Positions 17,431 through 64,000 of a DNA stretch of 64,000 bases are shown in pieces. Numbering within the stretch: the stretch's first letter is position 1; the number at the start of each line of letters is the position of its first letter. The translations under genes were made by a program, and so were the position numbers. The notes below the pieces were generated by a model that was given only the letters and a program-made list of their open reading frames with translations, was not told the origin of the DNA and did no database searches. The DNA is from Verrucomicrobium sp. BvORR106 (GTDB lineage Bacteria > Verrucomicrobiota > Verrucomicrobiia > Verrucomicrobiales > Verrucomicrobiaceae), in NCBI RefSeq assembly GCF_000739655.1, contig NZ_BATR01000125.1:1-64000 (forward strand), read 5' to 3'.

Positions 17431-20400
17431 ATGCAGGTGACGGAAAAGTGGCTCGGCGAAATCGGAGGCTGGCAGGCAATGAAGTCTGCCAGGGAATACG
17501 TGCGGACTGGTGGCGTGGCGGAAGCCACCCATCAAGGCCAGGTCTATCAGGGCCTGGTAGGGCAGGGGGGCCGGCGATACAAAGCCACCCTGACCGTGAA
17601 GGATGCGCGGACGGTGGACTGTCGGTGTGCTTGCAGTGATGCCCAGAGGGGGCTCATCTGCGCCCACGGACTGGCCGTCGCGCTTCAAGCGATCACCGGA
17701 GGTCCAGTCGCCTCTGCGAGTTCGTCGGTCGGCGATGCTCGTTCCGGTGCCGCAGGATCGAGTCGACCGGGTCCGGGTGGTTCGGCCAATCCTGCTTTTC
17801 ATGCCGCGACCGGGAAAAGTGCCGATGCTGTTCAGAAGATCGCCTTGGATCTTAACACGATCCCTGCGGGAAAATTCACCGTCTCCATCCCGCTGTCCCA
17901 CCTCGGTCAGTTGCCAAGGGGAACCGTCCCGGTGTACCTCGATTTCCAACCTGGCGGCGAGACCAAGGAGCTGGAAATCGCCCAATGGCTTTTCACGCGA
18001 GGACTAAAATGTCAGTCCATGCCGCTCCGACTTCCTGCAGCAGATCTAGGAGAGCTCTTCATCACGTTGAAGGGGCATCCTCGAGTCCAAAACGGACTGC
18101 CCGCAATGAGCGCTAAATCTTCAGGCGGTGTGCAAACATCACTGAAAGCACTGATCATCAATGATTTGCATCTATCTGATGAAATTGTGCGTGTTAATGT
18201 ATCACAAAGTATTGTTTTTCAGGTATTAAGCACTGCTTTAACCGTGCAAAGTGTCGGAGCGGTGTCAACGGTGGTCGATGCAGGCACTGGTACGATTATG
18301 CTTCCCGACGGTCCTCATGTGAGTAACTTGCGGCCGTTTCTGGACGAGCTTTTTACGCGCCGGAAGGTGGAGCGCAGTCCCCGTTGGGTGGCGGCAAACC
18401 TCGGAACGCTCGGGGAAATTCTGGATGTCGAAAGCCCGGCGGCGCCTCTCGCGAAGGTGCGGGTGGTGCCGGCGGATCCTGTCTTTGGGCTGCGACTCGA
18501 TGGTTCATTGCGGCGCGTGGAGGCATCCTTAACGGTTCATCCTGTGCCTCAGGCGAGCCACCCCGTGACGCTCGGTGTGGACTTCGGTCGGGAGTGGCGT
18601 GAGACGGATCTCTATCCCATTCCAGATCCTTCAGGTGACCCGCTGCGGTTCCGGCATCGGAATCTTCTGCGGGAACAGGGGGCTTGGCAGCGACTGGAGT
18701 CGGCAGGCTTCCGCATGGACCATCAGGGCGTGCTGGCGATCAATGGCGAGTCGGAAGTGTTGCGCTTCGTGGCCACCGAGTTGCCGCGCCTGAAGTCGCT
18801 CTTCGAGATCCATGAGGGTGACGGCTGGCGCAATGCCACACGCGGTCTGGCGACCATCCGCCCCCAGATGCGCACCAAGGAGGATCCTCGCGACTCGTCC
18901 GCCGGTGATTCTCGTCAGGGCACGGGCATGGACTGGCTCAGCCTGGAAGTGGCCTATGAGGCCGCCGACGGTTTCCGCATCGCCCGGCAGGAGGTCCTTC
19001 GCCTCATTCGCAGTGGCAAGCGGGATGTTCGTGCTCAAGATGGCCGTCGTTACCTCCTGGACATCGAGGGCTGCGAGGAATTGGAAGAGACTCTCCAGGA
19101 TGTGGAGTCGCGCTTTGGCCAGGGTGGCCAGACCATCGCGGTCAGGTCGCGCCAGCTCGGCGTGCTCAGTGACTTCCTGCCTACGGGCAAATCCGCGGTG
19201 CCGCAGAAGGCGCGGGCGTTGGAACTTCCTGAGATTAAGGCGTTACTTACAGATCTTGGAAACACCTTGCGACCCTATCAGCTTGAGGGTGTTCAGTGGC
19301 TTGAGCAACACACCCGTTCAGGGGCGGCAGGGCTCTTAGCGGACGAGATGGGCTTGGGTAAGACGGTGCAGACCTTGGCCCTGCTTCGCATCATTCGCGC
19401 CCGGGTTAACGCAGCAGGAGGAAAAGGGCAGGGGGGTGAGCCGGTTGGGCCTGCCCTCGTGGTGTGTCCCACCTCGCTTTTGTCGAACTGGTCAGAGGAA
19501 GCGGCCCGCTTCACGCCGGAGCTCAAGACCCACGTTTCTCATGATGTGGGTCGCAAAGAGAAGCTGGGAAATCTTGCCGATTACGACGTGGTATTCACAT
19601 CTTATGCTCTGATTATCAGAGATTTGGAGTATTACGTAAACCTAAAATTTTCCGTCGTTGTATTGGATGAAGCTAGCTACATCCGCAACCCTGATACGGC
19701 CGCGGCCAAGGCGCTCTGTCAGCTCAAGGCGGAGGCCAGATTTGCGCTTACGGGCACCCCGGTGGAGAACTCCATCAAGGATCTCTGGTCCATCTTCGCC
19801 TTCATGCTGCCGCGGTACCTGCCGGTGCTGGAGGATTTCCAGTCCCGGTTCGTGAAACCACTCAGTCAGGCAGAGGGGCGGACCACCCAGTCGCGCGCCA
19901 TCATGGAGCGCCTGCGCCGACTCATTCGGCCGTACTTGTTCCGGCGCACCAAGCGTGAGGTGGCCAAGGATCTTCCGGAGAAGATCGAGAAGGTGGTCTG
20001 GTGTGAACTCACCCGGGAGCAGAACGAGGTGTACCAGCGCCTGCTGGAGGAAGGGCGTGAGGAGATCCGCTCGGCTCGCAAGCGGACTGGTCAAGGCTCG
20101 GCGCGCATGACCATGTTCACCGTGCTCCTGCGTCTCCGCCAAGTTTGCAACGACCTCCGGCTCCTCAAGCTGGGTGATCATTTCAAGGGTCAACCGGGCG
20201 GCAAATGGCCGATGCTGGAAGAATTGCTGCAAGAAATTATTGACGGCGGAGGCAAAGCATTGATATTCAGTCAGTTCGTTGGAATGTTACGTTTGGTGCG
20301 TGATAAAGTTCAGAGCTTGGAGATCGCTCACAGCTACCTGGACGGCGGCACTCAGGACCGTGGTGGTCAGGTGTCAGCGTTCCAGTCGGACCCTGAACGG

Positions 20401-20709
20401 AAGCTTTTCCTCATCAGCCTCAAGGCAGGCGGCTACGGCCTCAACCTGACGGCGGCAGACCATGTGCTCCTGGTGGATCCCTGGTGGAATCCGGCCGTTG
20501 AGGCCCAGGCTATTGACCGGGCGCACCGTATCGGTCAGGGCAGGCCGGTGACGGCGTACCGTCTGGCCACGAGAGGGACCGTGGAGGAGAAGATCCTCAA
20601 GCTCCAGGAGAAGAAGCGTTCCATCATGGACATGACTTTGGAGGATGATCCGACTGTGATGGCCGGGGTGTCGGATTCGGAGCTGGAAGAGATGCTCATG
20701 GGCGCCTGA
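17431..20709 (+). CDS. SWIM-domain SNF2-family helicase
   Basis: A 1092-residue protein. A SWIM zinc finger is near the N-terminus (CRCACSDAQRGLICAHGLAVAL, about 66-86). A long middle region (150-590) of unclear fold precedes the SNF2 ATPase: motif I LADEMGLGKT (about 635-644), motif II VLDEAS (about 745), motif III ALTGTPVENS, and helicase C domain with ALIFSQFVGML, GYGLNLTAADHV and AHRIGQGRPV. Such proteins are ATP-driven DNA translocases of the RapA/HepA type. It is divergent from parA with 60 bp between starts. Patches of AT-richer codons near 18100-18290 and 20230-20310 stand out. Confidence 0.93.
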   Translation: MQVTEKWLGEIGGWQAMKSAREYVRTGGVAEATHQGQVYQGLVGQGGRRYKATLTVKDARTVDCRCACSDAQRGLICAHGLAVALQAITGGPVASASSSVGDARSGAAGSSRPGPGGSANPAFHAATGKSADAVQKIALDLNTIPAGKFTVSIPLSHLGQLPRGTVPVYLDFQPGGETKELEIAQWLFTRGLKCQSMPLRLPAADLGELFITLKGHPRVQNGLPAMSAKSSGGVQTSLKALIINDLHLSDEIVRVNVSQSIVFQVLSTALTVQSVGAVSTVVDAGTGTIMLPDGPHVSNLRPFLDELFTRRKVERSPRWVAANLGTLGEILDVESPAAPLAKVRVVPADPVFGLRLDGSLRRVEASLTVHPVPQASHPVTLGVDFGREWRETDLYPIPDPSGDPLRFRHRNLLREQGAWQRLESAGFRMDHQGVLAINGESEVLRFVATELPRLKSLFEIHEGDGWRNATRGLATIRPQMRTKEDPRDSSAGDSRQGTGMDWLSLEVAYEAADGFRIARQEVLRLIRSGKRDVRAQDGRRYLLDIEGCEELEETLQDVESRFGQGGQTIAVRSRQLGVLSDFLPTGKSAVPQKARALELPEIKALLTDLGNTLRPYQLEGVQWLEQHTRSGAAGLLADEMGLGKTVQTLALLRIIRARVNAAGGKGQGGEPVGPALVVCPTSLLSNWSEEAARFTPELKTHVSHDVGRKEKLGNLADYDVVFTSYALIIRDLEYYVNLKFSVVVLDEASYIRNPDTAAAKALCQLKAEARFALTGTPVENSIKDLWSIFAFMLPRYLPVLEDFQSRFVKPLSQAEGRTTQSRAIMERLRRLIRPYLFRRTKREVAKDLPEKIEKVVWCELTREQNEVYQRLLEEGREEIRSARKRTGQGSARMTMFTVLLRLRQVCNDLRLLKLGDHFKGQPGGKWPMLEELLQEIIDGGGKALIFSQFVGMLRLVRDKVQSLEIAHSYLDGGTQDRGGQVSAFQSDPERKLFLISLKAGGYGLNLTAADHVLLVDPWWNPAVEAQAIDRAHRIGQGRPVTAYRLATRGTVEEKILKLQEKKRSIMDMTLEDDPTVMAGVSDSELEEMLMGA

Positions 20710-21258
20710 TGCCAGCCGCATCGTGATGGATTGTCTCAGTGTTGCGTCTCGCAGTTTCACCAAGACTGCGGGCGCAGCCTCGGTCTGCGCCGGTTGCCAC
20801 GGGTCGCTGGCGCGATTCTGAGAACAGTCTTCACGTGAGGCGGTCCGAATCGGCCAGAAGCTTTGTGAGCCCAGCGCCGGACGGCGTCAAAACCTTGAAA
20901 TCCCGAGGCCTCAAAATCAGGCGTTTATACCAAATGTTGCACGTGGAACACTGCCTCACAAAGTGACCTGGATGAGCCTCAGACCTGCGAATTGGCCAAG
21001 TATCGGCTATAGCCGACTATAGCCGGAAACTGTCAGAACTGAGTGCAGATTGGGTGTTTAGAGGCCATTTGAGGCCTTCGGCGGGGAATGCTTATAACTA
21101 GATACAATGTAAGTAATGTAAAATAGACTAGTGTCGGTATCGGAGTTGAAAGCTGTTCCTTGCATGCTTGGAGCGGCCCCCTATTTTTGATCCACCGCTG
21201 AATGTGGTCAGCTAGTTTTCACTGGCGGCCGTCCGTGCTCCAACAAGGGTGGTTTTTT
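20710..21258. other. Intergenic region, no gene recognised
   Basis: About 550 bp. Contains a short direct/inverted motif around CTATAGCCGACTATAGCC (21009-21026) and an AT-rich stretch at 21090-21130. No ORF with a recognisable product. Confidence 0.5.
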
Positions 21259-23572: not shown

Positions 23573-23878
23573 CGCTTGGCACGCAAATGGTCCGTATGGC
23601 GTCATGCCCCTTCGCGTTGACGTAGGTGGTAGCCTCGGCAATGGAAGGTCTCCACAATAGCCCGTCTCGCCGTGGTTCTGCGGCGGTGTGGCGGACCGAT
23701 GGAGCGCATTGGCATCCGAGAACAATTGGAACCCGCTGCCGCGCTTCGATCATTCTCAGCTCATTTTCAAAACCAAGTGGGCCAGATTACCTCAGGTGAA
23801 ATTCATCCCGGGTGCTGCCTACACCAAAAAACTGTGTGCCCGTTCGGTTGGTCCAGCGGGCTCAGGATGTCGATAGAC
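23573..23878. other. Intergenic region, no gene recognised
   Basis: About 300 bp with short open frames only. CTTGGCACGCAA at about 23576 is also present near 22396, a minor shared motif. Confidence 0.45.
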
Positions 23879-24124
23879 TCATTTGCCCGGCCACATCGCC
23901 CCCATCTGGTGCCCCCGCACAAACAAAGCGACCCCCTGTAGCATAAAGAGGAGCCGCAGGAGGATCATGAACAGGTTTCTAGGCAGGTGCAGATCCGGGG
24001 TATCGCGAACCAGGAAGAACAGGGCCAGGCCGGAACTGACGAGCAAGACAACCCCGAGAATCTGCAGCGTAGTTCCCCAAGCCTTCATCGAGGCCAATTT
24101 GGCATCTTTTTCCGAAGCTGACAT
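23879..24124 (-). CDS. Small membrane protein with two predicted helices
   Basis: An 81-residue protein. A short charged N-terminus (MSASEKDAKLASMKAWG) precedes hydrophobic helices TLQILGVVLLVSSGLALFFLV (about 19-39) and FMILLRLLFMLQGVALFV (about 52-69). No family recognised. The distinct membrane topology and an ATG start support it, but coding could be accidental. Confidence 0.5.
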   Translation of the reverse strand: MSASEKDAKLASMKAWGTTLQILGVVLLVSSGLALFFLVRDTPDLHLPRNLFMILLRLLFMLQGVALFVRGHQMGAMWPGK

Positions 24125-24253
24125 CCTTTTTGGCTGCCTGGAATCGCTAGTTCATGCCAGCCCGACGTTGCCGTGGGCATGCGGCGGATTCTCAAGCATG
24201 CAGTCAGAACCGCAGCTTGCATCCTGAAACATCTTGGCTGTCTATGGTCTCCC

Positions 24254-24625
24254 ATGTCCTTGTACGAGTACCGCATCGTCTTCAAGAATGGCGAGGAGCG
24301 TCGCTTCCAGGCGGAGAAGCACCAAGACAATGGCCAGAAGTTGATCCTTCAGGCCTCAGCGCGGGACGAGATTCCGTTTTCGCTTGATGAGGTGGAGGAG
24401 TACTCTTGGAAGCTTCGTGCTGAACCCCACGAACTCTACTTGGAAGACAACAGCTACCTGGAGGTTCTTGCCGACGACTACGTGTGGACCGATGATTTTG
24501 TCGTCTTCTACATTAACGGAGAAGAGGTGTTTCGCATCGAAGAATCCAAGGTTGGTTGCGTGGGTCCTCTAGTCTATATGAGATCCCACGCGAACAGTTT
24601 ACCCCGAGTTCGAGAACTGAGTTGA
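24254..24625 (+). CDS. Small beta-rich protein, distant member of the local paralog family
   Basis: A 123-residue acidic protein from the ATG at 24254. Its start, YEYRIVFKNGEERRFQAEK, then KLILQASA and FSLDEVEEYSW, follows the same order as the smaller proteins encoded at 24860, 26609, 27978 and 28463: a first beta strand, a turn with charged residues, a strand with aromatic/Leu pattern, and an acidic-x-V then Trp. A second similar half begins at DFVVFYINGEEVFRIEESKV (about 81-100), so it may be a duplicated form. Function unknown. Confidence 0.6.
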   Translation: MSLYEYRIVFKNGEERRFQAEKHQDNGQKLILQASARDEIPFSLDEVEEYSWKLRAEPHELYLEDNSYLEVLADDYVWTDDFVVFYINGEEVFRIEESKVGCVGPLVYMRSHANSLPRVRELS

Positions 24626-24859
24626 GCCGTCCTCATCAGATGCTCGAGAGGATCGCTTGGCTCGTTGAGACTGGAGAGCGACGCTGCCACCCACTCTGCA
24701 TCCAGAAGCAGGGCAATCTCGGGCAAGTCCATACACATAAAGGAGAGCGGTAGGTGCAAAATTGGGTCGATATATGCACTTATGCGCATTATTTTCGAGT
24801 GCAGCGGCACGTGCTGTGGTGATATCACCCGATCCCGTGCAAAGGCACCGACTCCCCGC

Positions 24860-25060
24860 ATGAAGTTTTATCTCATCGTCACCCACTCCAAAGGTCCAGA
24901 AATTGTCGAAGGGATCGGGTGTGAATCCACGGTCCGGAGCCTGCGGATCCTGGTGCGGGGTGAGAAGAAGCGGGAGTTTGACCGTGAAGACGTCTTTACG
25001 TGGAAGGAGTGCGCGAGCCGGTTCGAGGCAGAAGAGACCCAACGCGTGATGGGGCTCTAG
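24860..25060 (+). CDS. Small paralog family protein (66 residues)
   Basis: Starts MKFYLIVTHSKGPEIVEG and contains DREDVFTWKECASRF (about 41-55). The same two blocks occur in the protein at 28463 (VVTNSKGP, DVLLWQECA) and at 26609 (VVTTSKGAEI, DVLFWDECA). Predicted mainly beta with a short C-terminal helix; no signal or membrane segment. No known domain recognised. Upstream in-frame codons to 24665 do not resemble the family, so this ATG is preferred. Confidence 0.75.
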   Translation: MKFYLIVTHSKGPEIVEGIGCESTVRSLRILVRGEKKREFDREDVFTWKECASRFEAEETQRVMGL

Positions 25061-25097
25061 GCGATCCCCTTGGAGTGATGGGAGCTGATCGGCCTTC

Positions 25098-25796
25098 TCA
25101 CCGCGACAGTCCCGTGGCTGGGGTGACGGCCTTCCGCCTCAGGTAATGAAACCAGCCATAGGCCACGCCGAGGAGGCTGATGACGCCCCCGGAAATCAGC
25201 AGCCAGGGGATGTCCTGCAACTCCACGGTGGACGGGCGAATGGCGAACAGGCAGAATCCCAGGATGGTCATGCTGGTGGCGACGCCATAGCCGAAGAGTT
25301 GGAGTCCTCGCGACCGGGTCTGCCAAAGCGACCGCTGTTGCAGTTGATGAGCTGAATCTGGTCGGGCGTAGTTCCTCCAGAGCAAGCCCCAGACGCACAG
25401 GGAGAAGGCTATGCTCCACTTGGGCCAGCCGTATTCCACCAGGGCGAACTCGGGATGGTGCGAGTCATAATAGATCGGGATCGTATCTCCCGGACGCAGC
25501 GCGCCTCCCAACTCCCCTGCCCCCGATTCATAGCCGTGACGGCTGAACCAACCGGCCCGAACACGATCCGATTCATACTCCCGGCCCTCCACCTCATAGC
25601 GGTAGCGAATGTCTGACTTGGAATTGCCGTGATGAGAGACCTTGGCTGATGCCAGCACCTTGCCATGCGTCAGGCCATCGCGGGCACGAAACAGGTGCCA
25701 GCTGGAGACGACAAACTCCAGGGGCATCATGAAAAGCAGCACGCCAAACAACGGGCCGAAAATGAGCAGCCCGATCCACCAGGAGAGTTTCCTCAC
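25098..25796 (-). CDS. DUF3592-type membrane protein
   Basis: A 232-residue protein. A hydrophobic N-terminal helix (WWIGLLIFGPLFGVLLFMMPL) is followed by a periplasmic beta-rich DUF3592 segment (GKVLASAKVSHHGNSK, IRYRYEVEGREYESDRV, RPGDTIPIYYDSHHPEFALVE). Further hydrophobic helices follow near 128-143, 168-188 and 194-213. DUF3592 proteins have no firm function. It is convergent with the small paralog gene ending at 25060. Confidence 0.82.
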   Translation of the reverse strand: MRKLSWWIGLLIFGPLFGVLLFMMPLEFVVSSWHLFRARDGLTHGKVLASAKVSHHGNSKSDIRYRYEVEGREYESDRVRAGWFSRHGYESGAGELGGALRPGDTIPIYYDSHHPEFALVEYGWPKWSIAFSLCVWGLLWRNYARPDSAHQLQQRSLWQTRSRGLQLFGYGVATSMTILGFCLFAIRPSTVELQDIPWLLISGGVISLLGVAYGWFHYLRRKAVTPATGLSR

Positions 25797-26002
25797 CCTG
25801 CAACTCTGGACTGGGACAGGTGAAGGTCAACTGGGTAAGTTCCAAGGAGGAACGGCAGGCTTATCTCAACTCCCCCTGCACTTTCTTTGCCGCGCCCAAC
25901 TTTGAGCAGCAAAGGGAGCCCGCCTTTCGCGGTGGCTGCCAAATGGCCTCCCCGCAATTGAGGGGGGTGCGCAGTGGGGAGATCTTCATAGCATGCAAAA
26001 AG

Positions 26003-26047
26003 GGAACGGTAAGGTCGCTCATTCCGCGTAGCGGCCTTACGGTTTCC
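26003..26047. repeat. Hairpin with 17-18-base arms
   Basis: The arm starting GGAACGGTAAGG (26003-26019) pairs with the arm ending CCTTACGGTTTCC (26030-26047) with a few mismatches, around a 10-base loop. Confidence 0.6.
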
Positions 26048-26067
26048 AGGACTGCTAGCGGTCCGGG

Positions 26068-26100
26068 CGCCTTGGGAGGGTTGGAGTCTCTCCCAAGGCG
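26068..26100. repeat. Perfect 11-bp hairpin
   Basis: CGCCTTGGGAG (26068-26078) and CTCCCAAGGCG (26090-26100) pair perfectly with an 11-base loop. It follows the previous hairpin directly. Confidence 0.65.
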
Positions 26101-26608
26101 TTTAAGGATTGGCCTTCAGTGCATCAATCGATAACGAATTGACAAGCGATGGTGCAGCTTTAACCCAGGGATGCCTGCATGGGTGGTCGGTTGGATCTTG
26201 ATCCCACCCGCAAGGCATTGCATGAAGTTCATTTCTGGATTCAAGGGTTAAGGAAGGATAGTCTTGCTCACTTTTCTTAGCCAGTGTGGCACTCCCGTTT
26301 CATCATGCGTGAGGTACTCTTGATGACTTGGGCAGAAGATCCCAAGAGTCGATAGCGCTCCACATTCCACCTATGGTTGGCCCTTCCAGAGGTCTGCCCT
26401 ATCCAGGCCGTTCACCCCTGCTCCGGCGAGGTGTGAACGGGACAAAACGGCTGCGCATGCAACCAGAGAGGTTTCTGTCTCTCCCGCCTCTCTTCTAATC
26501 TGCCTATTTTGCGATTGTTTTGGACCCTAAACGTGGTACAACCTTAGATGTATATCAGGGCAACGCCTGACCACTGCAGGTAGTCGTTGTCCCGACGGGA
26601 GAACGACG

Positions 26609-26869
26609 ATGAATGGGGTGGCGGGATCTTCAGCGACGAAGCGGGTGTACGTGGTGGTCACGACCTCCAAGGGTGCCGAGATCATCGAAGCCTGTGCGAT
26701 CGTGGAAGATGGACTGTCTTTTGTTTTCCAGCGTCAGGGGGAAGTCTGGCGGGAGTACAGCCGGCGGGATGTTCTCTTCTGGGATGAGTGTGCGGCTATG
26801 CCGGATGCCGTGCAGATGGTGGCAGAACTGAGAGGCGGCACCGTGAGCGCTAAAACGTGCCCCGTTTAG
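26609..26869 (+). CDS. Small paralog family protein (86 residues)
   Basis: After a ten-residue lead it reads KRVYVVVTTSKGAEIIEA and then RRDVLFWDECAAM (about 52-64), the two blocks shared with the proteins at 24860 and 28463. A GGGAGAACGACG stretch lies just upstream of the ATG. The C-terminal tail is a short amphipathic helix. No known domain. Between the blocks is a beta-hairpin-like GLSFVFQRQGEVWREYS. Confidence 0.75.
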   Translation: MNGVAGSSATKRVYVVVTTSKGAEIIEACAIVEDGLSFVFQRQGEVWREYSRRDVLFWDECAAMPDAVQMVAELRGGTVSAKTCPV

Positions 26870-26987
26870 CCTGCTGTTACGCCGGAGGTTGCCAACCGTT
26901 CTGGAACGATTATTCCCGCTCGCGGTACAGGCAGAACTAGGATAAGGTGCGGCGCAACCGCCTGCGAACGTCCACTTGTCGTTCACC

Positions 26988-27851
26988 ATGTCGCACTCCA
27001 AGTCTGTCGCTATCGTGACCATGAGTCCGTCTCAGGTCCCGTACGCGATGCATCTAGCGGCCGCGGAGGGGTGGAATCCCGGGCTGCATGATGCGACCTC
27101 TTTCCATGCTGCGGATCCCGAAGGATTCCTAATGGCGGAGCTAGAAGGTGAGCCAGTGGGGTGCATCTCGGCTGTCTCTTATCCGGGCGGTTTCGGCTTC
27201 ATCGGCCTCTACATTGTGGAGCCGGAGTTCCGTGGCCGCGGCATTGGTCGGGCGCTATGGCGACAGGCCATGCAGCGCCTGAATGGGGTCAACATCGGTC
27301 TAGATGGCGTGGTGGCCATGCAGGAAGCGTACGCCAGATCGGGATTCAAACTGGCCTATCGCAACATCCGCTACGCTGCCTCCCACCTCCCCTCGCCCGG
27401 TCCATTGCCGGCTGGCGTCCGCCTGGTGCCCGCAGCGGAGGTGCCCTTCGAAGATCTGCGGGCCTATGATCGGCGATTCTTCCCGGCAGATCGGGAAGCT
27501 TTTCTCCGCAAATGGATCCGCCAGCCAAGTGGGTGGGCTGTAGCCGCCCTTGGAGCTGATGGCCTCCAAGGCATGGGCGTTATCCGGTCATGTCGGGAAG
27601 GGCACAAAGTGGGCCCGCTGTTTGCCGACAATCCGGAAATGGCAAAAATCCTCTTGCTGACTCTGGCCAGTCGGCGGAATGCAGACGCTCGGGTCATCCT
27701 GGACGTGCCGGCGGTGAATCCCGCAGCCATCTCCCTGGCGCAGGAGGTGGGAATGGAGGTGATCTTTGAGACCGCCCGCATGTACACTGGGGATCCACCT
27801 TTGGTGGATCTGGAGGGGACATTTGGGGTCACCACCTTCGAACTGGGTTGA
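26988..27851 (+). CDS. GNAT-family N-acetyltransferase with extra C-terminal domain
   Basis: A 287-residue protein. The N-terminal half is a GNAT domain: VGCISAVSYPG, FIGLYIVEPEFRGRGIGRALW (about 68-88), the acetyl-CoA-binding motif A with R/QxxGxG/A. The C-terminal half (about 125-285) resembles the second acetyltransferase-like domain found in GNAT proteins such as those with an acetyltransf_18 domain. ATG at 26988 preferred over a TTG four codons upstream. The acceptor is unknown. It lies inside the small paralog cluster. Confidence 0.88.
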   Translation: MSHSKSVAIVTMSPSQVPYAMHLAAAEGWNPGLHDATSFHAADPEGFLMAELEGEPVGCISAVSYPGGFGFIGLYIVEPEFRGRGIGRALWRQAMQRLNGVNIGLDGVVAMQEAYARSGFKLAYRNIRYAASHLPSPGPLPAGVRLVPAAEVPFEDLRAYDRRFFPADREAFLRKWIRQPSGWAVAALGADGLQGMGVIRSCREGHKVGPLFADNPEMAKILLLTLASRRNADARVILDVPAVNPAAISLAQEVGMEVIFETARMYTGDPPLVDLEGTFGVTTFELG

Positions 27852-27977
27852 CGAAGCGGGCGATGCACTTAAGAAGTACGCTTCGCCGAGTGGGTATCAT
27901 TAGGCTTGATCTTTATTGATTCCTAGGGTATTTTGTCTTCAGTTGTGCATTATCCTCCATAAGTAATAATTACCAGC

Positions 27978-28220
27978 ATGGCGCGTTTTGTGGTGGTAAC
28001 ATTCGACGGTGGATATCACGAATTCACGGCTGAGACCGTGGATCCTTACGGGCCGCAACTCTTGTTCAAGGAGAACGACGCCCTGCTAAAGAGCTTCTCC
28101 AAGACCGAGGTGATCTGCTGGGACACCGATCTGACCAAGCCTCCGCTGGGTGGGATGGGACCCACCTGGAGCAAGCTGCGTCCCCTGCCCGGCTACGCGG
28201 AGCCGAAAGATCCGGAGTGA
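27978..28220 (+). CDS. Small paralog family protein (80 residues)
   Basis: MARFVVVTFDGGYHEFTAE, then PQLLFKEN, then FSKTEVICWDTD: a divergent member of the family at 24860, 26609 and 28463. It retains the first strand (FVVVT), a central LLF strand and an E-V-x-x-W-D block, but lacks the Cys-Ala after the Trp block. The C-terminus is Pro-rich. No known domain. Confidence 0.6.
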   Translation: MARFVVVTFDGGYHEFTAETVDPYGPQLLFKENDALLKSFSKTEVICWDTDLTKPPLGGMGPTWSKLRPLPGYAEPKDPE

Positions 28221-28311
28221 GTCGGCCCGCTTCGCGGGAGACACCAGACTGTTAGATGCCAGACGCCAGGCAGCAGACCTGAGATCAAGGGCCAACGCGG
28301 CACCCAACCCC

Positions 28312-28326
28312 CAGATTGGCAATCTG
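28312..28326. repeat. Perfect hairpin CAGATT-ggc-AATCTG
   Basis: Six-bp perfect stem and three-base loop (28312-28326), of the same type as the hairpins at 14146-14185 and 41898-41918. Confidence 0.5.
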
Positions 28327-28462
28327 TGGTACCGCCGGTTTTGCAATCGGGCATCGACTCTGCCCAAGCGAGTCTGGTGGAAGTTGCCTGATACTGATGA
28401 TCAGCCAGCATTTAAGTTGCGCATGAAAACAATTATGATTTATAGTGGCACCTCGATTTGCC

Positions 28463-28678
28463 ATGAAGTTCATACTGGTTGTCACCAATTCGAAGGGTCC
28501 TGTGATTTTCAGGGGGCGCAAGGGTACGAATACCCGGGGCGAATTGACCTTCTACTCTGCGGATGGACGGACGAGTTTTGAGACCACCGATGTCCTGCTC
28601 TGGCAAGAGTGCGCTACGGCAGCTGCCGCCGATCAGGTGGTGGAAGCCCTTGGACTGGGCGACGAGGTGCCGGGCTAG
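28463..28678 (+). CDS. Small paralog family protein (71 residues)
   Basis: MKFILVVTNSKGPVIFRG at the start and TTDVLLWQECATA (about 41-53), closely matching the protein at 24860-25060. The ATG at 28463 aligns exactly with the MKF start of that paralog, so the upstream GTG (28445) is rejected. A short helix follows the Trp-Cys block (ADQVVEALGL). No known domain or targeting signal. Confidence 0.75.
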   Translation: MKFILVVTNSKGPVIFRGRKGTNTRGELTFYSADGRTSFETTDVLLWQECATAAAADQVVEALGLGDEVPG

Positions 28679-55788: not shown

Positions 55789-57360
55789 GTGGCCTCGAAG
55801 CAACTAGACCCAGAACACGTGTCCCACCCGTCAATCAGTTGGGCATTGCAGCACATTGCGAGGTATGGGGATACAGATGTATTCCCGATAGCATTTGAAT
55901 ACCAAGCATTTCAATCGATTTGGCCCACTTTGCTTGACGCACTTCACAAGGTCAATATAGCGGAACATGAACTCGGTGCGGCTATCCGAATGATGGTGCC
56001 TAAGCATGTAGGAGGTTATCGATCGGCAACACAAACAGATCCGGTCGATTCACTCCTGCTACTTGCAATGGTGTATGAAATGGCACCACAGATAGAAGGC
56101 TTTCGCATCCCTGTCGATATAAAAATATCTTGCGCCTACCGCCTCGAAATCGAATCTAATGGTCAGTTCTTCAGTAAGGATTCGGGATGGGGGGATTTTC
56201 AAGAAAAATCAAAAGAATTGGTCGACGATTTTCTGTGTACCCATGTTGTTTGCACCGATGTGAGCGACTTTTACAATCAAATCAGTCATCATCGAGTTCA
56301 GAATTCGCTGGGAAGCGCGCAGGTTGCTGAAAATCGCAGTCACGTCCTTGAAAGATTTCTCAGCAATCTCAATGCACTGCATCATTCCCGAGGCATCCCC
56401 GTTGGTCCGACATCCAGCATATTGCTGGCTGAATGCGCATTGGCAGATGTGGATAACTATTTGATGCGCCGTCAATTCAAGCACACTCGATACGTGGATG
56501 ATTTTCGCATTTTTTGCGATTCCGAAGAGGAGGCAGTAAAAGCACTGCATGAACTGAGCGACTACCTTTTTAAATCACATCGACTGTCTCTACAGCCCTC
56601 AAAAACGCGAGTGCTTTCTCACGATGAATTCAAATCCCGCGAGCTTCATGATCCTGAAAAGATGGAACAGGATAAAAAGACGCGCTTCATTTCCAACATG
56701 ATTGAAGAATGGGGATTTGGCCCATACGGGGCGCCCCAAGCGAACATTGACGAAGTAGAGCAAGATGCCATTCGAGAGTCGATTGTGGAACTGTTTGATG
56801 AGTTGTTACAACTTCCTGTGCTGCCTCTTGGCCTCACCCGCTACGTGCTTCGCAGAGCAGGAGCCATTCGCTCCAGGGCAATTTTACAACGCAGCTTAGA
56901 CAATGTGGATAAACTTATTCCAGCATTGAGAGATCTAATCATCTATTGGTGTAAGGTAGCTGACAAGAAGAGGCCAGAACAGATTGGTGAGCGCCTAAAA
57001 TGGATCATTCAAGACTCGAAATTTCGATCGCTTCCTTACGTCCAGTATTGGATCTTGTCAGCATTCGAGTCAAATCCGACCCTTTGCGATTCGACAACGG
57101 CCATAGCACTGGCCGAGGACAGCGATCCACAGATTCGAGACCGCATGGCAGCGTTATTGGCAAGAAAGCATGGTATCGTTGATTGGGTTCGCAGTAGGAA
57201 AGAGACCTGGCTTAACACATCAGCATGGGGGCAGCGAGCCATCATTTGGTCCTCCTCTGCGCTTCCTAAAAATGAGCGGATGCACTGGCTTAAGTCGATT
57301 GCGAACTACCCGGTTCTTTCAATCCGCTCTGTTGCGAAAGCATCGATGGCAATGAAGTGA
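55789..57360 (+). CDS. Reverse transcriptase, defence-associated type
   Basis: A 523-residue RT. Palm motifs: TDVSDFYNQI (156-165, catalytic Asp in motif A), GIPVGPTSS (202-210, motif B), and RYVDDFRIF (234-242) with the YVDD catalytic pair (237-238). LSLQPSKTRVL (266-276) follows. The 280-523 part is helical and repeat-like, without a maturase or endonuclease domain, as in Abi/UG-group RTs (AbiA, AbiK, DRT). This is neither a group II intron RT nor a typical retron RT. Start is GTG 55789 with AGGAG ten bases upstream. An associated 454-residue protein follows after 66 bp. Exact class is not decided. Confidence 0.88.
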   Translation: MASKQLDPEHVSHPSISWALQHIARYGDTDVFPIAFEYQAFQSIWPTLLDALHKVNIAEHELGAAIRMMVPKHVGGYRSATQTDPVDSLLLLAMVYEMAPQIEGFRIPVDIKISCAYRLEIESNGQFFSKDSGWGDFQEKSKELVDDFLCTHVVCTDVSDFYNQISHHRVQNSLGSAQVAENRSHVLERFLSNLNALHHSRGIPVGPTSSILLAECALADVDNYLMRRQFKHTRYVDDFRIFCDSEEEAVKALHELSDYLFKSHRLSLQPSKTRVLSHDEFKSRELHDPEKMEQDKKTRFISNMIEEWGFGPYGAPQANIDEVEQDAIRESIVELFDELLQLPVLPLGLTRYVLRRAGAIRSRAILQRSLDNVDKLIPALRDLIIYWCKVADKKRPEQIGERLKWIIQDSKFRSLPYVQYWILSAFESNPTLCDSTTAIALAEDSDPQIRDRMAALLARKHGIVDWVRSRKETWLNTSAWGQRAIIWSSSALPKNERMHWLKSIANYPVLSIRSVAKASMAMK

Positions 57361-57426
57361 CAAACGTCGAGGCTCAACCCAGATTCACGACTCAATGGCT
57401 ATCAGACGCTCATTAATCAAGGAAGA

Positions 57427-58791
57427 ATGAATCACAATATAAAAAAGTTCATTATCATAGGGTCGAGCTCCTTAGCGGGCATTTCAGGGCGCAACTTAAC
57501 TTGCATCCGCTGGGATAAACTGACTCCTAAGATAAATCTGCGCGATTTTGACGTCGTCATAATCTCAACGCTTGCATTTGGCACCTCCGATCAGCCGAAT
57601 GTCGACTGGGCAACGTTCTTTCACATTCTAAATCCAACTATTGCGCGAGACGTGTCCGCTCATGGAGGTGTGTTTATGATAGTTGGAAATCCCACATTTG
57701 ACGTCCACCTCGACAAAGGTAAAGCAAGTGCACCATTTCTGTCTTGGACAGGGTTGCAGCTAGAATGGGATATCGCCCATGGTGACACTATGCAGTTTCT
57801 TGATTCACGTGTGAACACAAACTTTGCAACCTACTGCTCTTACATTGCGGGTTGGCAATATTCACTTAGATCCTGCTCCATTGGAAGTACTGGTTATGAT
57901 GCCATCGAGGATGTTGCAAGGAGTGGAGGGTCGATAATACTCCATCGCGACGATATTGCCACCAATCGACACAAGAATGCACTTGCCACTAGAATCAAGG
58001 TAAAACATAAAGTTACCGGCCACCAATACTCCTCCACCGAAACGACAATTCTTCACTATATTCTACTCCCCCCGATCAATTTCTCCAACGATGACACCTT
58101 GTTGTTAGTACTTCGCGATGTCTGCAATCTTCCTCTCGCCGTAAATGAACCAGAGTGGGTTAAGGAGTGGATTGCCCCCAATCAGATTAGAATAGATGCA
58201 CAAATTGCCAGTTTAGGAATTGCAATGCGAAAGCTCCAATCGGAGCTTGATGCCGCGCAATCGGATCGTAACAAATCACGTCAGTGCCTCAAATTGCTGT
58301 ATTCCCGTGATCACGAACTTGAAGAGATTGTTCGCTCCGTTTTGCGCTCATTGGGGGCGATCATCGAGGATCCAACAGGTGATAACAAGGAGGACGGATG
58401 GATTTCAGTTAACGCTCATAACTCCATTCTTGAAGGGGTTCTCGAAATTAAGAGCACTGAGAAAGACAGTTTTACGGAACAGGGGCTCCGCCAACTGGGA
58501 GAATGGAAAACTCGAGGCATTGTCGAAAGGCATAAAAAGTTCAAAGGCATTTTTGTCGGCAACAGTGCACTAATGTGTTCGCCCGACTCTCGCCCATATC
58601 CATTCTCAGATTCCTTCCTTAAAGCCGCCACTCTCAGCGAGGTCTGCATTCTAATGACAAGCGACCTGTACGCAGTTTATCAACTGCACTGTGAAGGCGC
58701 GCTAGATTATGGCGCCTTCTGGACTGCCCTCTTCTCAACAAACGGATTGTTTTCCTGGAAGTCGGATAAAGGCCAATCTAAAAGCAATTGA
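57427..58791 (+). CDS. Putative effector with restriction-nuclease-like C-terminus
   Basis: A 454-residue protein, not recognised overall. The N-terminus (KFIIIGSSSLAG, DFDVVIISTLAF, GGVFMIVGNP) looks like a Rossmann-type sensor fold. A probable coiled coil lies at 255-295. The C-terminal domain resembles PD-(D/E)xK nucleases: LEEIVRSVLRSLGAIIED (299-316), ED at 322-323, and LEGVLEIKS with E-x-K at 340-342, then QLGEWK. It follows the RT by 66 bp on the same strand, so a two-gene RT/nuclease system is likely. Function inferred only; no known named family was matched. Confidence 0.6.
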   Translation: MNHNIKKFIIIGSSSLAGISGRNLTCIRWDKLTPKINLRDFDVVIISTLAFGTSDQPNVDWATFFHILNPTIARDVSAHGGVFMIVGNPTFDVHLDKGKASAPFLSWTGLQLEWDIAHGDTMQFLDSRVNTNFATYCSYIAGWQYSLRSCSIGSTGYDAIEDVARSGGSIILHRDDIATNRHKNALATRIKVKHKVTGHQYSSTETTILHYILLPPINFSNDDTLLLVLRDVCNLPLAVNEPEWVKEWIAPNQIRIDAQIASLGIAMRKLQSELDAAQSDRNKSRQCLKLLYSRDHELEEIVRSVLRSLGAIIEDPTGDNKEDGWISVNAHNSILEGVLEIKSTEKDSFTEQGLRQLGEWKTRGIVERHKKFKGIFVGNSALMCSPDSRPYPFSDSFLKAATLSEVCILMTSDLYAVYQLHCEGALDYGAFWTALFSTNGLFSWKSDKGQSKSN

Positions 58792-59154
58792 ATCCGGTCC
58801 AATTTCCAGTCGCAACCCATTCAAGGAGCATTCTCCGGGTGAATTGGCGTCCCGGCTTCATGGCTGAAACCGGTGCGCGTCAGAACTTTTGTCAATCCCT
58901 CCCCCCTCAAAAAAAAGACGGCCTGGCAACTTTTCATCATCCTATTCCGGTACAGCGAGTGATCCCACCTCATCTGCGATTTCTAAGCTTGCGAGCGAGG
59001 CAAGTTCTCCTAGCGTGAGTAATTCATAATTATTCGTGGTGTGCTGCGAGGGCGAGATGACGGGCGTAAAGTCTAGGCTCCAACGGGCAAAAATGTGAAG
59101 AGCTTGCTAAAACTGGGAAACTCTTTTAAACAGCTTGGCGCCCCGCTTAAAACA
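58792..59154. other. Intergenic region, no gene recognised
   Basis: About 360 bp, AT-richer than the core, between the RT/nuclease pair and the convergent cyclase-like gene. No clear ORF. Confidence 0.45.
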
Positions 59155-59829
59155 CTATTCCTCATGCAAAAAGTGCAACGTCGCGCCATCGGTGATGCCT
59201 TTCAATGGAACCCCTTCCATTGTGGACGCTGAGTACCGAGACAAGGGTTCAATGCCAGAGAGTTTTGCACATCTGAATGCTTGAAGCACATCGTCTGAGA
59301 CAACTATCTTGTTGGCTTCAGACTTCCCCGAGATCCTAAATCCAAAATCCACGTCTGGCCCGATATAATCGAGTCGCCCATCTATTTTACATACAATATT
59401 GCCGGATTGATGCTGTTGAAAATCTAATGTCGAGGAAGGTCCTGTCTCAGTCGCCGATATTGTCCAGATTGCAGACTTTGTTCGACGCATCACAGATTGC
59501 GAGGAATTGTCCACATTGTGCAATTCCTCTGCCATGCGAATCGCTCCATCCAGCGCCACATCTAATCCATGCTTAATCATCACGGCTGAATGAATCACCT
59601 TTTCGATATCAGATTCATCTTGGATTTCGTGGTAGAGGAGAATTTCATCTCCTATCGATTTCCACACATTCAGTTCTATGGTCTTATTAGGATAGTGTGC
59701 GATAACTTCCTTTCTGAGATTGTGCACTCGATTGTAGAACATGAATACAATCCATGGCCAATTGGGAATTTTTCTCTTCATGGCGGTTGATTCGCACAAG
59801 TCAAAGCTAACCAAGACGTACTTTTTCAT
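59155..59829 (-). CDS. Class III nucleotidyl-cyclase-like protein (Pycsar-type candidate)
   Basis: A 224-residue single-domain protein. Class III cyclase features: first metal Asp in VSFDLCEST (D10), second in WKSIGDEILLY (D61), and GPDVDFGFRIS near 170 in the position of the VNxxxR transition-state element, with Asp in place of Asn. The GPDxDxGFR form is unlike housekeeping adenylate cyclases; it recalls cyclases of the Pycsar anti-phage system, but I could not confirm this. A Pycsar effector (TIR or TM type) is not visible next to it: downstream is the RT/nuclease region and upstream a long gap. Confidence 0.55.
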   Translation of the reverse strand: MKKYVLVSFDLCESTAMKRKIPNWPWIVFMFYNRVHNLRKEVIAHYPNKTIELNVWKSIGDEILLYHEIQDESDIEKVIHSAVMIKHGLDVALDGAIRMAEELHNVDNSSQSVMRRTKSAIWTISATETGPSSTLDFQQHQSGNIVCKIDGRLDYIGPDVDFGFRISGKSEANKIVVSDDVLQAFRCAKLSGIEPLSRYSASTMEGVPLKGITDGATLHFLHEE

Positions 59830-60316
59830 TTGTATATTAGGCTCCGAATCTGATGACTAGCTAGAACTGAAATCGCTTATTAAACGTAACAGGCATCCAG
59901 CAAAAGGTTTAATATGGAGTCGATCCACAATGGAATCAAGGATGCCCTTATGCATTTCTTGCTTTCCTCGGCCAGGGTGAGCTTTGGGGAGGGGCAAGGT
60001 TTATACTTGCCTTTGATTTCAAGATAGATACAGCCTCATTGTTATCCGACTCATTGGTATTGAGGACTTTTATGGCTTCGGTCAATATCCTCACGATGTC
60101 GTCAAGGTCTCATGCGCTGGATGCATCCTGTGATCTCTCGGGATTTGTTGGGGATGTGCACACTTACTAGCGGACCTGCCTAAGTATTGTCTGTTGATCG
60201 ATGTATTGTGCGAGGCTCTCTCCTTTGATCATTTTACCGCTGGAGACTCAATGTATGATTCATTAAATGCTGCAGGGCATGCAACTTGAATGTGTTGGAA
60301 CTAGGGGTTAATCAAA
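59830..60316. other. Intergenic region, no gene recognised
   Basis: About 490 bp, AT-rich, with many stops in all frames. No structure recognised. Confidence 0.45.
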
Positions 60317-62272
60317 TTAGAGCTTAAATGTGAGATGAGATGCGTCCGGCTTGGTGAGCTCTACTAGCATCTCGCCGGTGAAGTGATGCCAGCGCCTATT
60401 GAGGCGTTCCGCAGCTGCAAGATGATCATTAGTGGCGGGAGTTGTGGGTCCATCGCACAATGCATCGATCAGTTCGCGATCTTCTGGCTGCATACAAATA
60501 AGCCCCAATTTTTGCTCGGCTAGCCTCCAAATACTTGTGTTTGTCTCTCTGGCTTCCGGAAAAAGCTGTCGCCAGCAGCTTATTGCTACTCGGGTAACGA
60601 ATCCAGGGTCCTCACTAGCATGTTGTTGTGTGAGCTCAGCAGGTAGGATGATTCTTTCATAGTAGTGTCTCGGGCTAAGGTATCCCCTGGCCGTTTCGAG
60701 CGCTCCCAATTCGTCAGGACTTAGTGGCATCTGAGAGTGAGTTGCCACGTAGTAAAAAGAGTCGCAAAAACGTATGTTGAATCGTCGGTTGCTAAGGAGG
60801 GAGTAGGCCTCAAAGTACTCTAGAGCTAGCAGCTTCCCCTCTCGGCCTAATTGCATCATTTCACGGTGAGTGCCATACCACCCATCCTTTTTGAAAGCGG
60901 CGGAAAGGGATGGTGAAAGTCCCTTGTCCGGTTCGACTTCGAATGAGCGCTCATGAATGATCTTCCGCAGCTCCATGCCAGTCGAGCGCGGCAGGGGTTC
61001 TCCAAACCCTGCGCTTGAGCGGTCTAATTGTTGCCAGGTTAGGTACGATTTGTCGTCATCGACTTTGCAACCTAGTACCCCAATAAAGCCGTGGTGAAGT
61101 TTGAAATACTTCATGGCTAAACTAAGGGTGTTTAATAAATTTACGCTAGAATCCGCTTGATGCTGCTCAAAATTGGCCACATTGCTGAGCAGAAGCTTGC
61201 AAAGCACGATGTTCCCACTTTCGCACCTCTTACGGAGTGCATCTTTGACCGCTGAACTGTAGATGTCGTGCAGAGGTGTTGATATCCAACTTGTGAGGCA
61301 GCCAGTCCTGAGTGAGGCGGCTACGTCCAAGTGAGCGAAATTAATCTCTGCCCGTTCATGGTTGCAAATGGCATCCACGGTCTTGCTTAAATGCTCACCC
61401 TGAACATCAATAAGCAGTTGGACTCGTTCACTCAAGTGCTTGCTCAGTAGATCCTGGTAATCGGCTCGAGGCAGTGTTCGACAAAGATCGAGCAGTGTGG
61501 CATCAAAGAACAGATAAGCGTTGATGAAGATATAGAACATTTCGGGATCGGCCAAGCGCGCGTCCTTCTCAGCCAGTAGGCGCTGGATTCGCCGCACCAT
61601 AATATACCCAACAAAGTAGGGCGCATGGATAGGATCTGGGCAGGTTAGGAACAGGCGGCGCAATCCGTCGAATTGTGTTCGTATCACGTCCTGCACTAGT
61701 TTTGCTATATCTGCTTGGCTGGCTAGGCGTGGTCCGATTCGCGTCAACACGCCCTCCAATTCCGGTAGGTCCGTGGGAATCGGTGTTTCGTCAGCGTAGC
61801 GATATAGGTCACAGTTCCAGAGTTCCTGGAGGAGATGGAAGATGGCCGAACTAGTATTGTGCTGCTGTGAAACCTGAAAATCTAGTTGGGTGAACATCGC
61901 AATGCCCTCAAGCCAATATCGAAAGACGGTGAAGAGGTCAGTGCAGTTTGCCAAGTCGTCGCTGCTTAGGCGTGACAAAACAGTGCGAAAATCATTGACC
62001 TTCCCCAGTGATGGGTTCAAGTCCGCCCACCCGTCTGCTTCAGTCTTGGCCAGGTCGCGAACCTGAGCGCGCATAGCTTGCTGATAAGCGCAAAGATAGC
62101 CGAACGGGCCTTTTAAAGCGAACTGGTGAGTAAACTCGTGAAGGATTACGGAAATCTCTTCTCGCGTCCACTTTGCGCCGCGGACTGTGATTTGCGGTTC
62201 GACAAAGGGAAGAAATGAATAGCCGTCCGCCATGTCGACATAGGCCGAATAGGTTGTGCTGTGGAGGAGCAT
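60317..62272 (-). CDS. Large HExxH metallopeptidase-like protein
   Basis: A 651-residue protein. HEFTH at 45-49, in VILHEFTHQFAL, is a zinc peptidase motif; a downstream Glu in YWLEGIAMF (E122) fits the third ligand of a gluzincin. The remaining 500 residues are mostly helical with no recognised domain. No signal peptide or membrane helix is seen, so it is probably cytosolic. The only in-frame ATG near the start is 62272, and the site is only 45 residues from it; the N-terminus may be truncated or the start non-standard. A peptidase in a defence-like island could be an effector (inference). Confidence 0.6.
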   Translation of the reverse strand: MLLHSTTYSAYVDMADGYSFLPFVEPQITVRGAKWTREEISVILHEFTHQFALKGPFGYLCAYQQAMRAQVRDLAKTEADGWADLNPSLGKVNDFRTVLSRLSSDDLANCTDLFTVFRYWLEGIAMFTQLDFQVSQQHNTSSAIFHLLQELWNCDLYRYADETPIPTDLPELEGVLTRIGPRLASQADIAKLVQDVIRTQFDGLRRLFLTCPDPIHAPYFVGYIMVRRIQRLLAEKDARLADPEMFYIFINAYLFFDATLLDLCRTLPRADYQDLLSKHLSERVQLLIDVQGEHLSKTVDAICNHERAEINFAHLDVAASLRTGCLTSWISTPLHDIYSSAVKDALRKRCESGNIVLCKLLLSNVANFEQHQADSSVNLLNTLSLAMKYFKLHHGFIGVLGCKVDDDKSYLTWQQLDRSSAGFGEPLPRSTGMELRKIIHERSFEVEPDKGLSPSLSAAFKKDGWYGTHREMMQLGREGKLLALEYFEAYSLLSNRRFNIRFCDSFYYVATHSQMPLSPDELGALETARGYLSPRHYYERIILPAELTQQHASEDPGFVTRVAISCWRQLFPEARETNTSIWRLAEQKLGLICMQPEDRELIDALCDGPTTPATNDHLAAAERLNRRWHHFTGEMLVELTKPDASHLTFKL

Positions 62273-62437
62273 GCAGGGGGCAATAATCGAAAGTTGCTGT
62301 CGGGCACCATCACTATCAGAACAGTGATTGTGAAACTTCCTCTATATGAGAGGGGCATATTTTTTTGACGACCTTTAAAGTGTGAAGTCGAAAATGCAGC
62401 GCTGCCGGTTTTTCAGCGGAATTTTTGATCTAATCGC

Positions 62438-63004
62438 CTAAGCAGACTCCGAGCGTATGACGATTCGGTCATTGAGCCCGATTTCGCCCGCTGCCATCTT
62501 TACGCAGCCGAGCTCAATAAGGTGCTGCAAGCGGGCGGTCACCTTTAGCTCAGAAGTTTCCGGGCCTAGTGTCGCCGCCAGTGTAGAAATAGTGGGTACT
62601 TTGCGGTCCTCAATCAGCGTCCATATGGTGTACACGATTCGGGCATCCTCGGCGCCGAGATCGACGGTAGCTTGCTTGATCACATCATTTAGGAACGCCA
62701 ACGCAGCGACCACTAAAGGAATGATTACTTCACCGCTGGCAATTGCTCCGGACGCTGTCCTTGCTGCGGAGAATAGAAACTCTCTCAAGTGAAAGCGGAC
62801 GTTTCCAATACGCCTGCTGGAGCCTTTGACTATGTCTCCAGCTGCGTCTTGGTGGAGCTTAATGGTCTCCGCGATTGTTATCTCTCTTGCGGAAGCGGGA
62901 TCTGGCAGGACATGTAGACTCTGGAGCAGATGATTCTTTGTCAAGGGTTCGATGTCCAGCGCGGAGATTCGGGTGACGAGTTCTAGGGGAAGGGGGGCGC
63001 TCAT
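62438..63004 (-). CDS. Hypothetical protein with winged-helix-like C-terminus
   Basis: A 188-residue protein. The last 80 residues (ARIVYTIWTLIEDRKVPTIST, then LKVTARLQHLIELGCVKMAAG) have the pattern of a winged helix. The N-terminal 100 residues are helical and include a hydrophobic stretch (GEVIIPLVVAALAFLNDVI, about 91-109). It lies 165 bp upstream of the metallopeptidase-like gene on the same strand, so the two may form a unit, perhaps regulator plus effector. No family recognised. Confidence 0.6.
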   Translation of the reverse strand: MSAPLPLELVTRISALDIEPLTKNHLLQSLHVLPDPASAREITIAETIKLHQDAAGDIVKGSSRRIGNVRFHLREFLFSAARTASGAIASGEVIIPLVVAALAFLNDVIKQATVDLGAEDARIVYTIWTLIEDRKVPTISTLAATLGPETSELKVTARLQHLIELGCVKMAAGEIGLNDRIVIRSESA

Positions 63005-63486
63005 GGGTTAATTTACGGCGTAAGTTCTAGTAATGAGACTCTTGCGAGTCATCTTTATTTGATGATAGGTGGCGTTCGGAAATAGGATTTGCCGCGCGAG
63101 CGGTTTGTTCCGTGCGACAACCTAGTAAAACTGTTGTTTTGAAATGCAAGATATTCGATGGCGTTGCAGACAATTTTTGACAGGTTCACAGGTGCCATCG
63201 GGGATCTGAAGTCGGGATGCCACCAGGTGAGAGTTGTGCCAAGCGATGTGAACAGGCAGGGACGATTGCTCGCAAATGGAGAACAGAGAAGGCGACGAGT
63301 CGGTGCCTTGAAACCATTTCAGATCCAATAACCCTTGATCAACACACCCGCGAGAGGTTCAAAGGCCTCTATTCTTGTCAGGGTTAGTGAGGCCTTGTTC
63401 GTAGTAGGGACATGAGTAGGCCTCAGTACCCGCGAACCGAGTGCGACTGAGTAAACTAAAGTTTGTGCTACAAACAGCTTTCCACT
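63005..63486. other. Intergenic region, no gene recognised
   Basis: About 480 bp between two minus-strand genes. Short frames only. Confidence 0.45.
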
Positions 63487-64000
63487 CTACCGCCGACCTG
63501 CCCCTTCTACTCTTTCAATGGACACATCAACATCCATGCCAGCATAGTTGGCCGCCAGGTTTTTGGAGATGGAGAGTTCGACGGACGGATAGGACAAGCC
63601 AATCGTTGCGCGTTCCGGGAAGATGATGTTTTGCCAGTCCGTCTGCGAGGTGGACACATCGAAGAGTTTGTTCTTTTTCGAGTCCTCGCCGTAGTGCCAA
63701 CTGGAAAGTCGATCCATTCTAGAAGCTGGTTCCTTGAGGGAAACACGGAGCCATCGCTCCGAGATGGGCCGGGGAACCACCACGGTGGTAGTTGATGGCT
63801 TGGCGCGCAGGTTGATGGTCAACGAACACTGTCTGAGCAAGGCTAACTGCTTGTGATCGATGAATATGCCGATGTTGCCGAGGTCGATGTGGAGGCCTCT
63901 CACGGCGTCCGTCCATTTGACCCGGGCAAACTCTCCTGCCAGGTCCGGCTCATGTCGCTCCGAGGTGCCATCGGAGGTTGCTGTGATGTAGGACTTGATG
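63487..64000 (-). CDS. Partial CDS, C-terminal part of an unknown protein
   Basis: Open from the window end on the minus strand: the last 171 codons of a longer gene whose start is beyond 64000. Visible parts include GEFARVKWTDAVRGLHIDLG, SLTINLRAKPSTTTVVVPRP and LSISKNLAANYAGMDVDVSI. The beta-rich pattern has no family that I recognise. The start at 63903 (GTG) is internal and not used. AT content is close to the core genome. Confidence 0.6.
   Translation of the reverse strand, partial: IKSYITATSDGTSERHEPDLAGEFARVKWTDAVRGLHIDLGNIGIFIDHKQLALLRQCSLTINLRAKPSTTTVVVPRPISERWLRVSLKEPASRMDRLSSWHYGEDSKKNKLFDVSTSQTDWQNIIFPERATIGLSYPSVELSISKNLAANYAGMDVDVSIERVEGAGRR

Follow-up and report, generated by a model that had tools for sequence, protein, structure and literature searches.

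Very small paralogous genes of Verrucomicrobium form a conserved, unnamed family with a predicted small beta-barrel fold

Introduction

What do five very small genes without a family name, crowded into about 4.4 kb, encode? The question is raised by a stretch of 64,000 nucleotides of Verrucomicrobium sp. BvORR106 (contig NZ_BATR01000125.1; in our numbering contig C85 of genome G000), which we will call the window, and in which an original prediction made from the letters alone had described a tiny paralogous family, separated by unrelated genes and pointing to repeated duplication. All five open reading frames (ORFs) are present on the + strand, at 24254-24625, 24860-25060, 26609-26869, 27978-28220 and 28463-28678, and are referred to below by their first positions. 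They are real, related and conserved genes under purifying selection, and we would give about even chances to the view that their products are cytosolic Sm/SH3-like barrels, diversified by duplication and acting as binding adaptors. Tiny genes of this kind are easily missed in annotation and library building, and for this family of very small proteins there is now proof of selection, along with a profile, a predicted fold and a map of copy number.

Five related genes without a database name

The closest relationship is between the SKG-type proteins of 24860 (66 residues), 26609 (86 residues) and 28463 (71 residues), which have in common a VVT-x-SKG start and a D-V-x-x-W-x-E-C-A block. A relaxed form of this motif, drawn up after the proteins had been seen, matched exactly these three in a six-frame scan of the window and nothing in 200 residue shuffles (frames of 20-30 kb). 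Their mutual E-values lie between 5e-7 and 8e-7: a search of the genome (8.69 Mb) with 24860 returned itself, 28463 (E 5.3e-7, 37%) and 26609 (E 7.5e-7, 39%), and nothing else at E<=10. The assignment of 27978 (80 residues) to the same group also held, as it has a weak BLASTP link (E 0.004, to the ortholog of 26609) and fits the family profile. The product of 24254 (123 residues), listed as a weaker member, is the most distant of the five (15% identity with 24860), and its BLASTP links beyond its own ortholog, obtained with a small database, are to dispersed genes (E 3e-4 to 2e-3).

The isoelectric point (pI) is 4.7-5.0 in four of the five proteins and 6.6 in 24860, and none has a recognisable signal peptide or lipobox, the latter checked as a simple pattern over the first 35 residues. 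Pfam, NCBIfam and PADLOC (the last at E<=1) gave no credible match for any of the five, the best being CNP1 (E 0.16) and BT_3233_fam (E 0.14), and sequence searches of solved structures gave nothing better than E 0.3 (among the hits ryanodine receptor and RGS12), all of it taken as chance. A literature search, which was not exhaustive, found no account of the family.

The genes are conserved and under purifying selection

The same locus is present in Verrucomicrobium sp. BvORR034 (G001, contig NZ_BATQ01000104.1) and in G003, which we take to be V. spinosum DSM 4136. For V. spinosum, TraDIS data and targeted mutagenesis have been published (PMC12283558). All five genes have orthologs in G001, and 27978 and 28463 have them also in G003, where orthologs of 24254 and 26609 were not found. 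Identity and the ratio of non-synonymous to synonymous changes (dN/dS, by NG86) are 83% and 0.20 for 24254, 86% and 0.03 for 24860, 74% and 0.10 for 26609, 95% (G001) and 90% (G003) with 0.07-0.08 (0.08 against G001) for 27978, and 89% and 87% with 0.12-0.16 (0.12 against G001) for 28463, with the synonymous divergence of 24860 (2.6) and 26609 (1.6) near saturation. Differences between the window and G001 at the three codon positions number 15, 9 and 26 in 24254, 6, 6 and 32 in 24860, 18, 6 and 44 in 26609, 3, 1 and 16 in 27978 and 7, 5 and 20 in 28463, so that changes between orthologs are mainly synonymous in all five. An all-frame scan also flagged the five as coding, and with them some antisense frames that share the register of genuine genes.

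Very short frames without a database name could be merely chance ORFs. We consider the likelihood of this negligible, because the codon-position substitution pattern is seen in all five genes, their starts and frames are conserved, and they share a profile. Members dispersed elsewhere in the genome are under even stronger constraint than the cluster genes: in one, 60 of 60 residues are identical across three species despite 11 and 17 nucleotide differences, and in another 81 and 78 of 82 residues are identical.

The family extends beyond the window

Taken as a feature of the window alone, the family had been drawn too narrowly, since homologs are found elsewhere in the genome and in related bacteria: sibling species, a second genus, and a few other genomes with single copies. 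The condition that would have refuted the original prediction, absence of homologs beyond the stretch, therefore does not hold. A first profile run against 96 related genomes gave something at E<=1 in 24 of them, clear only in G000, G001 and G003, with G014 at E 0.004; a single-protein search gave six of 96 at E<=0.1, three of these clear, and in a 286-genome sample of the class (G003 not among them) two were positive, both in the genus. Iterated profiles brought in the dispersed Verrucomicrobium genes and then a multi-copy family in the second genus (G004 and G014). At E<=0.2 the iterated profile has matches in 21 of 68 genomes of the bacterial family, with 11 copies in G000, 12 in G001, 8 in G003, 10 in G004 and 9 in G014 (10, 11, 7, 8 and 7 at E<=0.001). 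These counts include the profile rows, and as the profiles were extended with hits of earlier rounds, E-values of rows inside a profile are self-matches. One family-like sequence each is found in G008 and in four genomes of a third genus (G026, G037, G032 and G027; E 1e-4 to 1e-3).

The widest search, covering 387 genomes of the phylum, gave 11 genomes at E<=0.01, and outside Verrucomicrobium only G008 (1.2e-6) and G103 (2.2e-5) were credited. It added G000:C170:51409, which therefore brings the genome of the window to about 12 members. The match in G484 (E 3.7e-4) and those in G579, G418, G111, G592, G419, G452 and G422 (E 1e-3 to 1e-2; sequences read for G111 and G592), as well as many weak rows of the 68-genome search at E 0.01-0.2, were put down to chance, either for lying within long frames or for not having the family start and pattern. 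One family copy in G001 (C21:45862-46017) has an internal stop codon, while its counterpart on G000:C194 is intact.

Common ancestry and duplication

Comparison of separately built profiles shows that cluster, dispersed and second-genus members share a common ancestry. The cluster-only profile aligned with that of the second genus at 97.55% (E 4.9e-12, 57 columns), while none of 60 column shuffles scored as high and the reversed profile gave 0.7%; cluster against dispersed genes gave 97.3% and dispersed against second genus 95.8%, again with none of 60 shuffles as high. The sets were not blindly chosen, since it was the cluster profile that first picked out two of the second-genus rows.

In the family tree (34 rows, 58 columns) 24860, 26609, 27978 and 28463 fall together with one dispersed gene (80/78), and 24254 groups, with weak support, with dispersed genes. 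One-clade tests (p 0.129 for all five, 0.477 for the four and 0.397 for the SKG group) neither reject nor show a single clade in any of the three cases. Local grouping does recur, with 5 of 11 G000 matches in the window cluster and pairs or triples within 3 kb in G004 and G014. A recent 2.4 kb tandem duplication in G003, its copies 97-98% identical, carries two identical copies of another member together with two DUF3592 stretches, one full and one shortened; the complete member copy adjoins the DUF3592 gene, as 24860 does. To judge from these repeats, the family has probably multiplied in part via local tandem duplication. The proposal of repeated duplication is thus borne out by the G003 repeat and by the direct matches among the SKG genes, but not to the extent that all five arose locally.

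A predicted small beta-barrel

The AlphaFold2 model of 28463, chosen for modelling, is a five-strand small beta-barrel followed by a helix (strands 2-8, 12-24, 27-32, 35-40, a short helical turn, 44-50, and helix 53-62), with a predicted local distance difference test score (pLDDT) of 87.4 and a predicted template modelling score (pTM) of 0.74. That of 24254 contains two such barrels in tandem (strands 3-43 and 47-105; pLDDT 80.2, pTM 0.64). In Foldseek the 28463 model has 968 Protein Data Bank (PDB) matches at E<=10, the best being 2rb6 (E 0.024), and VIA compared 984 chains, of which 20 are at Z>=5. The VIA matches are led by the DUF903/YgdR type (Z 5.4-6.0), with a cytochrome domain (4.9-5.4) and Hfq (up to 4.7) following. 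We consider it very probable that this is a small-barrel family; it is real and unnamed, and its predicted fold is a known one.

Several points weigh on the other side. The alignment behind the 28463 model has 13 related rows, sequence comparison shows no significant likeness between the halves of 24254 (internal repeat p 0.15), and the family tree is poorly resolved, with 20 of 31 inner branches open. No Foldseek match reaches E<=0.001 for 28463 in the PDB, for the 24254 model or in BFVD, and no VIA match reaches Z>=8, so that a match in the range seen may represent a mere common arrangement. The general architecture corresponds to the small beta-barrel 'Urfold', which spans SH3/Sm, OB and others and is an architecture class rather than a family, predicting no function (PMC6863707).

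Could the proteins be DUF903 (YgdI/YgdR, PF06004) members that have lost their lipoprotein signal? DUF903 proteins likewise have a small barrel of five strands, about 50 residues long, and provide the best fold matches (2rb6, 2ra2, 2k57, 3bdu, 2rd1, 3fif and 5cai, at Z 6.0 or less). The titles name DUF903/ygdR only for 5cai and 3fif, and the other five we take to be of the same type. The genome itself also holds a true DUF903 lipoprotein (G000:C161:17927-18073), and a DUF903 match above the Pfam cut-off is found in 57 of 68 genomes of the bacterial family. However, that lipoprotein carries an N-terminal lipobox whereas the five proteins do not, PF06004 matches none of the five, the 13 alignment rows or the 16 second-genus members, and hhalign against 27 DUF903 sequences from this bacterial family (of 30 fetched; E. 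coli not represented) gave 0.2-2.6%, with 2 to 12 of 60 shuffles as high. For want of profile support we reject DUF903 membership and regard an origin by signal loss as very unlikely.

Possible function of the barrels

We propose that the five genes encode stand-alone small beta-barrels, with five strands in Sm/SH3 order followed by a C-terminal helix, and with two barrels in 24254. The proteins are probably cytosolic, because a recognisable signal peptide or lipobox is lacking. Each barrel would be a small binding adaptor whose exposed edge strands and loops dock a single partner, either a protein or a nucleic acid. The paralogs of this unnamed family, multiplied in Verrucomicrobium and the second genus partly through local tandem duplication, would have different partners. 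Acidic pI and the lack of a shared neighbour (see below) favour protein partners acting in trans. If this is true, the family offers minimal binding scaffolds of natural origin.

A more specific alternative is that the proteins are putative Sm/Hfq-like, RNA-binding ring formers with a part in regulating RNA in a lineage that lacks Hfq. Strand order and size are alike, Hfq chains are the second fold-match group (Z up to 4.7), and Hfq ranks first in Foldseek for the 24254 model (E 0.053). Hfq itself was not found above the Pfam cut-off in any of 10 genomes (nine of the bacterial family and one of the class; weak fragments in three, E 0.08-0.7), against 5 of 14 control genomes, which keeps the idea alive but gives no direct support. 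In contrast to Hfq, four of the five proteins are acidic, and all five lack the Hfq signature KHA. The Hfq model (PF17209) matches none of the five or the 13 rows, and a whole-genome Hfq search marks none of these genes. The paralogs are also too divergent for a common RNA site to be assumed, and small barrels with such strand order bind many things. We therefore consider an Hfq-like role improbable. A direct RNA-binding test is nevertheless worthwhile, because the family has multiplied in genomes without recognisable Hfq. The boldest version, in which Hfq-less Verrucomicrobiaceae have multiplied private Sm-like mini-barrels, some double, that might form mixed rings for RNA-chaperone or ribonucleoprotein-scaffold roles, we would call a long shot.

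Copy number could instead be driven by arms races, if the genes were antidotes, immunity proteins or phage-derived accessory genes. Local arrays, the variable presence of 24254 and 26609 and a lower G+C at 20-28 kb fit this idea, as does the candidate defence gene at 21202 (described below). The fold is common to many small phage proteins: BFVD gave 1267 matches at E<=10 (best 3.2e-3), mostly uncharacterised phage proteins. The tiny phage families PHROG 8496 and 8591, of unknown function, are each matched by 6 of 16 second-genus members (best 6.1e-5 and 9.2e-4), but by none of the five window proteins, whose best PHROG matches (0.087 and 0.32) are not credible. On the other hand, no toxin family was found among 37 neighbours of members (25 of 26 families listed), PADLOC has no match for the five, and viral-contig scans gave none. 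In tblastn searches 28463 gave a single weak match to phages (E 0.4) and nothing in plasmids, and a second-genus member had no phage match. Unlike genes caught in an arms race, several copies show strong purifying selection, and we regard such an origin as unlikely. Binding adaptors with diverged partners remain our preferred reading.

Surroundings of the cluster

The description of the five as separated by unrelated genes applies to two of the intervals. Between 24860 and 26609 lies a DUF3592 membrane-type protein (25098-25796, - strand; PF12158, E 1.5e-11), convergent with 24860, and between 26609 and 27978 a GNAT acetyltransferase with a coding signature (26976-27851, + strand; Acetyltransf_18 1.1e-30 and Acetyltransf_1 9.4e-16 on 27009-27848); both are outside the family. 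No other frame with a coding signature lies between 24254 and 24860 or between 27978 and 28463. Upstream is an SNF2 helicase gene (17431-20709), and downstream are genes for a KaiC-type ATPase (29010), a hybrid histidine kinase (30638) and a WD40 protein (33200). The 37 neighbours of members elsewhere (37 of 207 ORFs, from 17 loci, two of them orthologous) contain no recurrent family except short-chain dehydrogenase, seen twice, and no operon partner, although which protein matched is not resolved by this test.

The protein at 21202-22131 matches the PADLOC candidate defence model PDC-S31 (E 5e-10), with only a sub-threshold DUF2971 match in Pfam, and the gene has no counterpart in the compared G001 and G003 stretches. 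Two further segments, 23784-24131 (84%) and 25949-26102 (90%), are conserved in G001 with no codon pattern in any frame and no Rfam match, and may be regulatory DNA or specify a non-coding RNA; the first occurs just once in the genome. The only Rfam match was at E 0.42, below gathering. A promoter scan of 24.0-29.2 kb gave 0 against 1.9 expected, and 10 terminator-like sequences against 4.1 expected; neither is used in the argument. At the far end of the window, at 56000-64000, the G+C content is only 47-52%, whereas most of the rest is at about 60% or higher, and this region may have been acquired.

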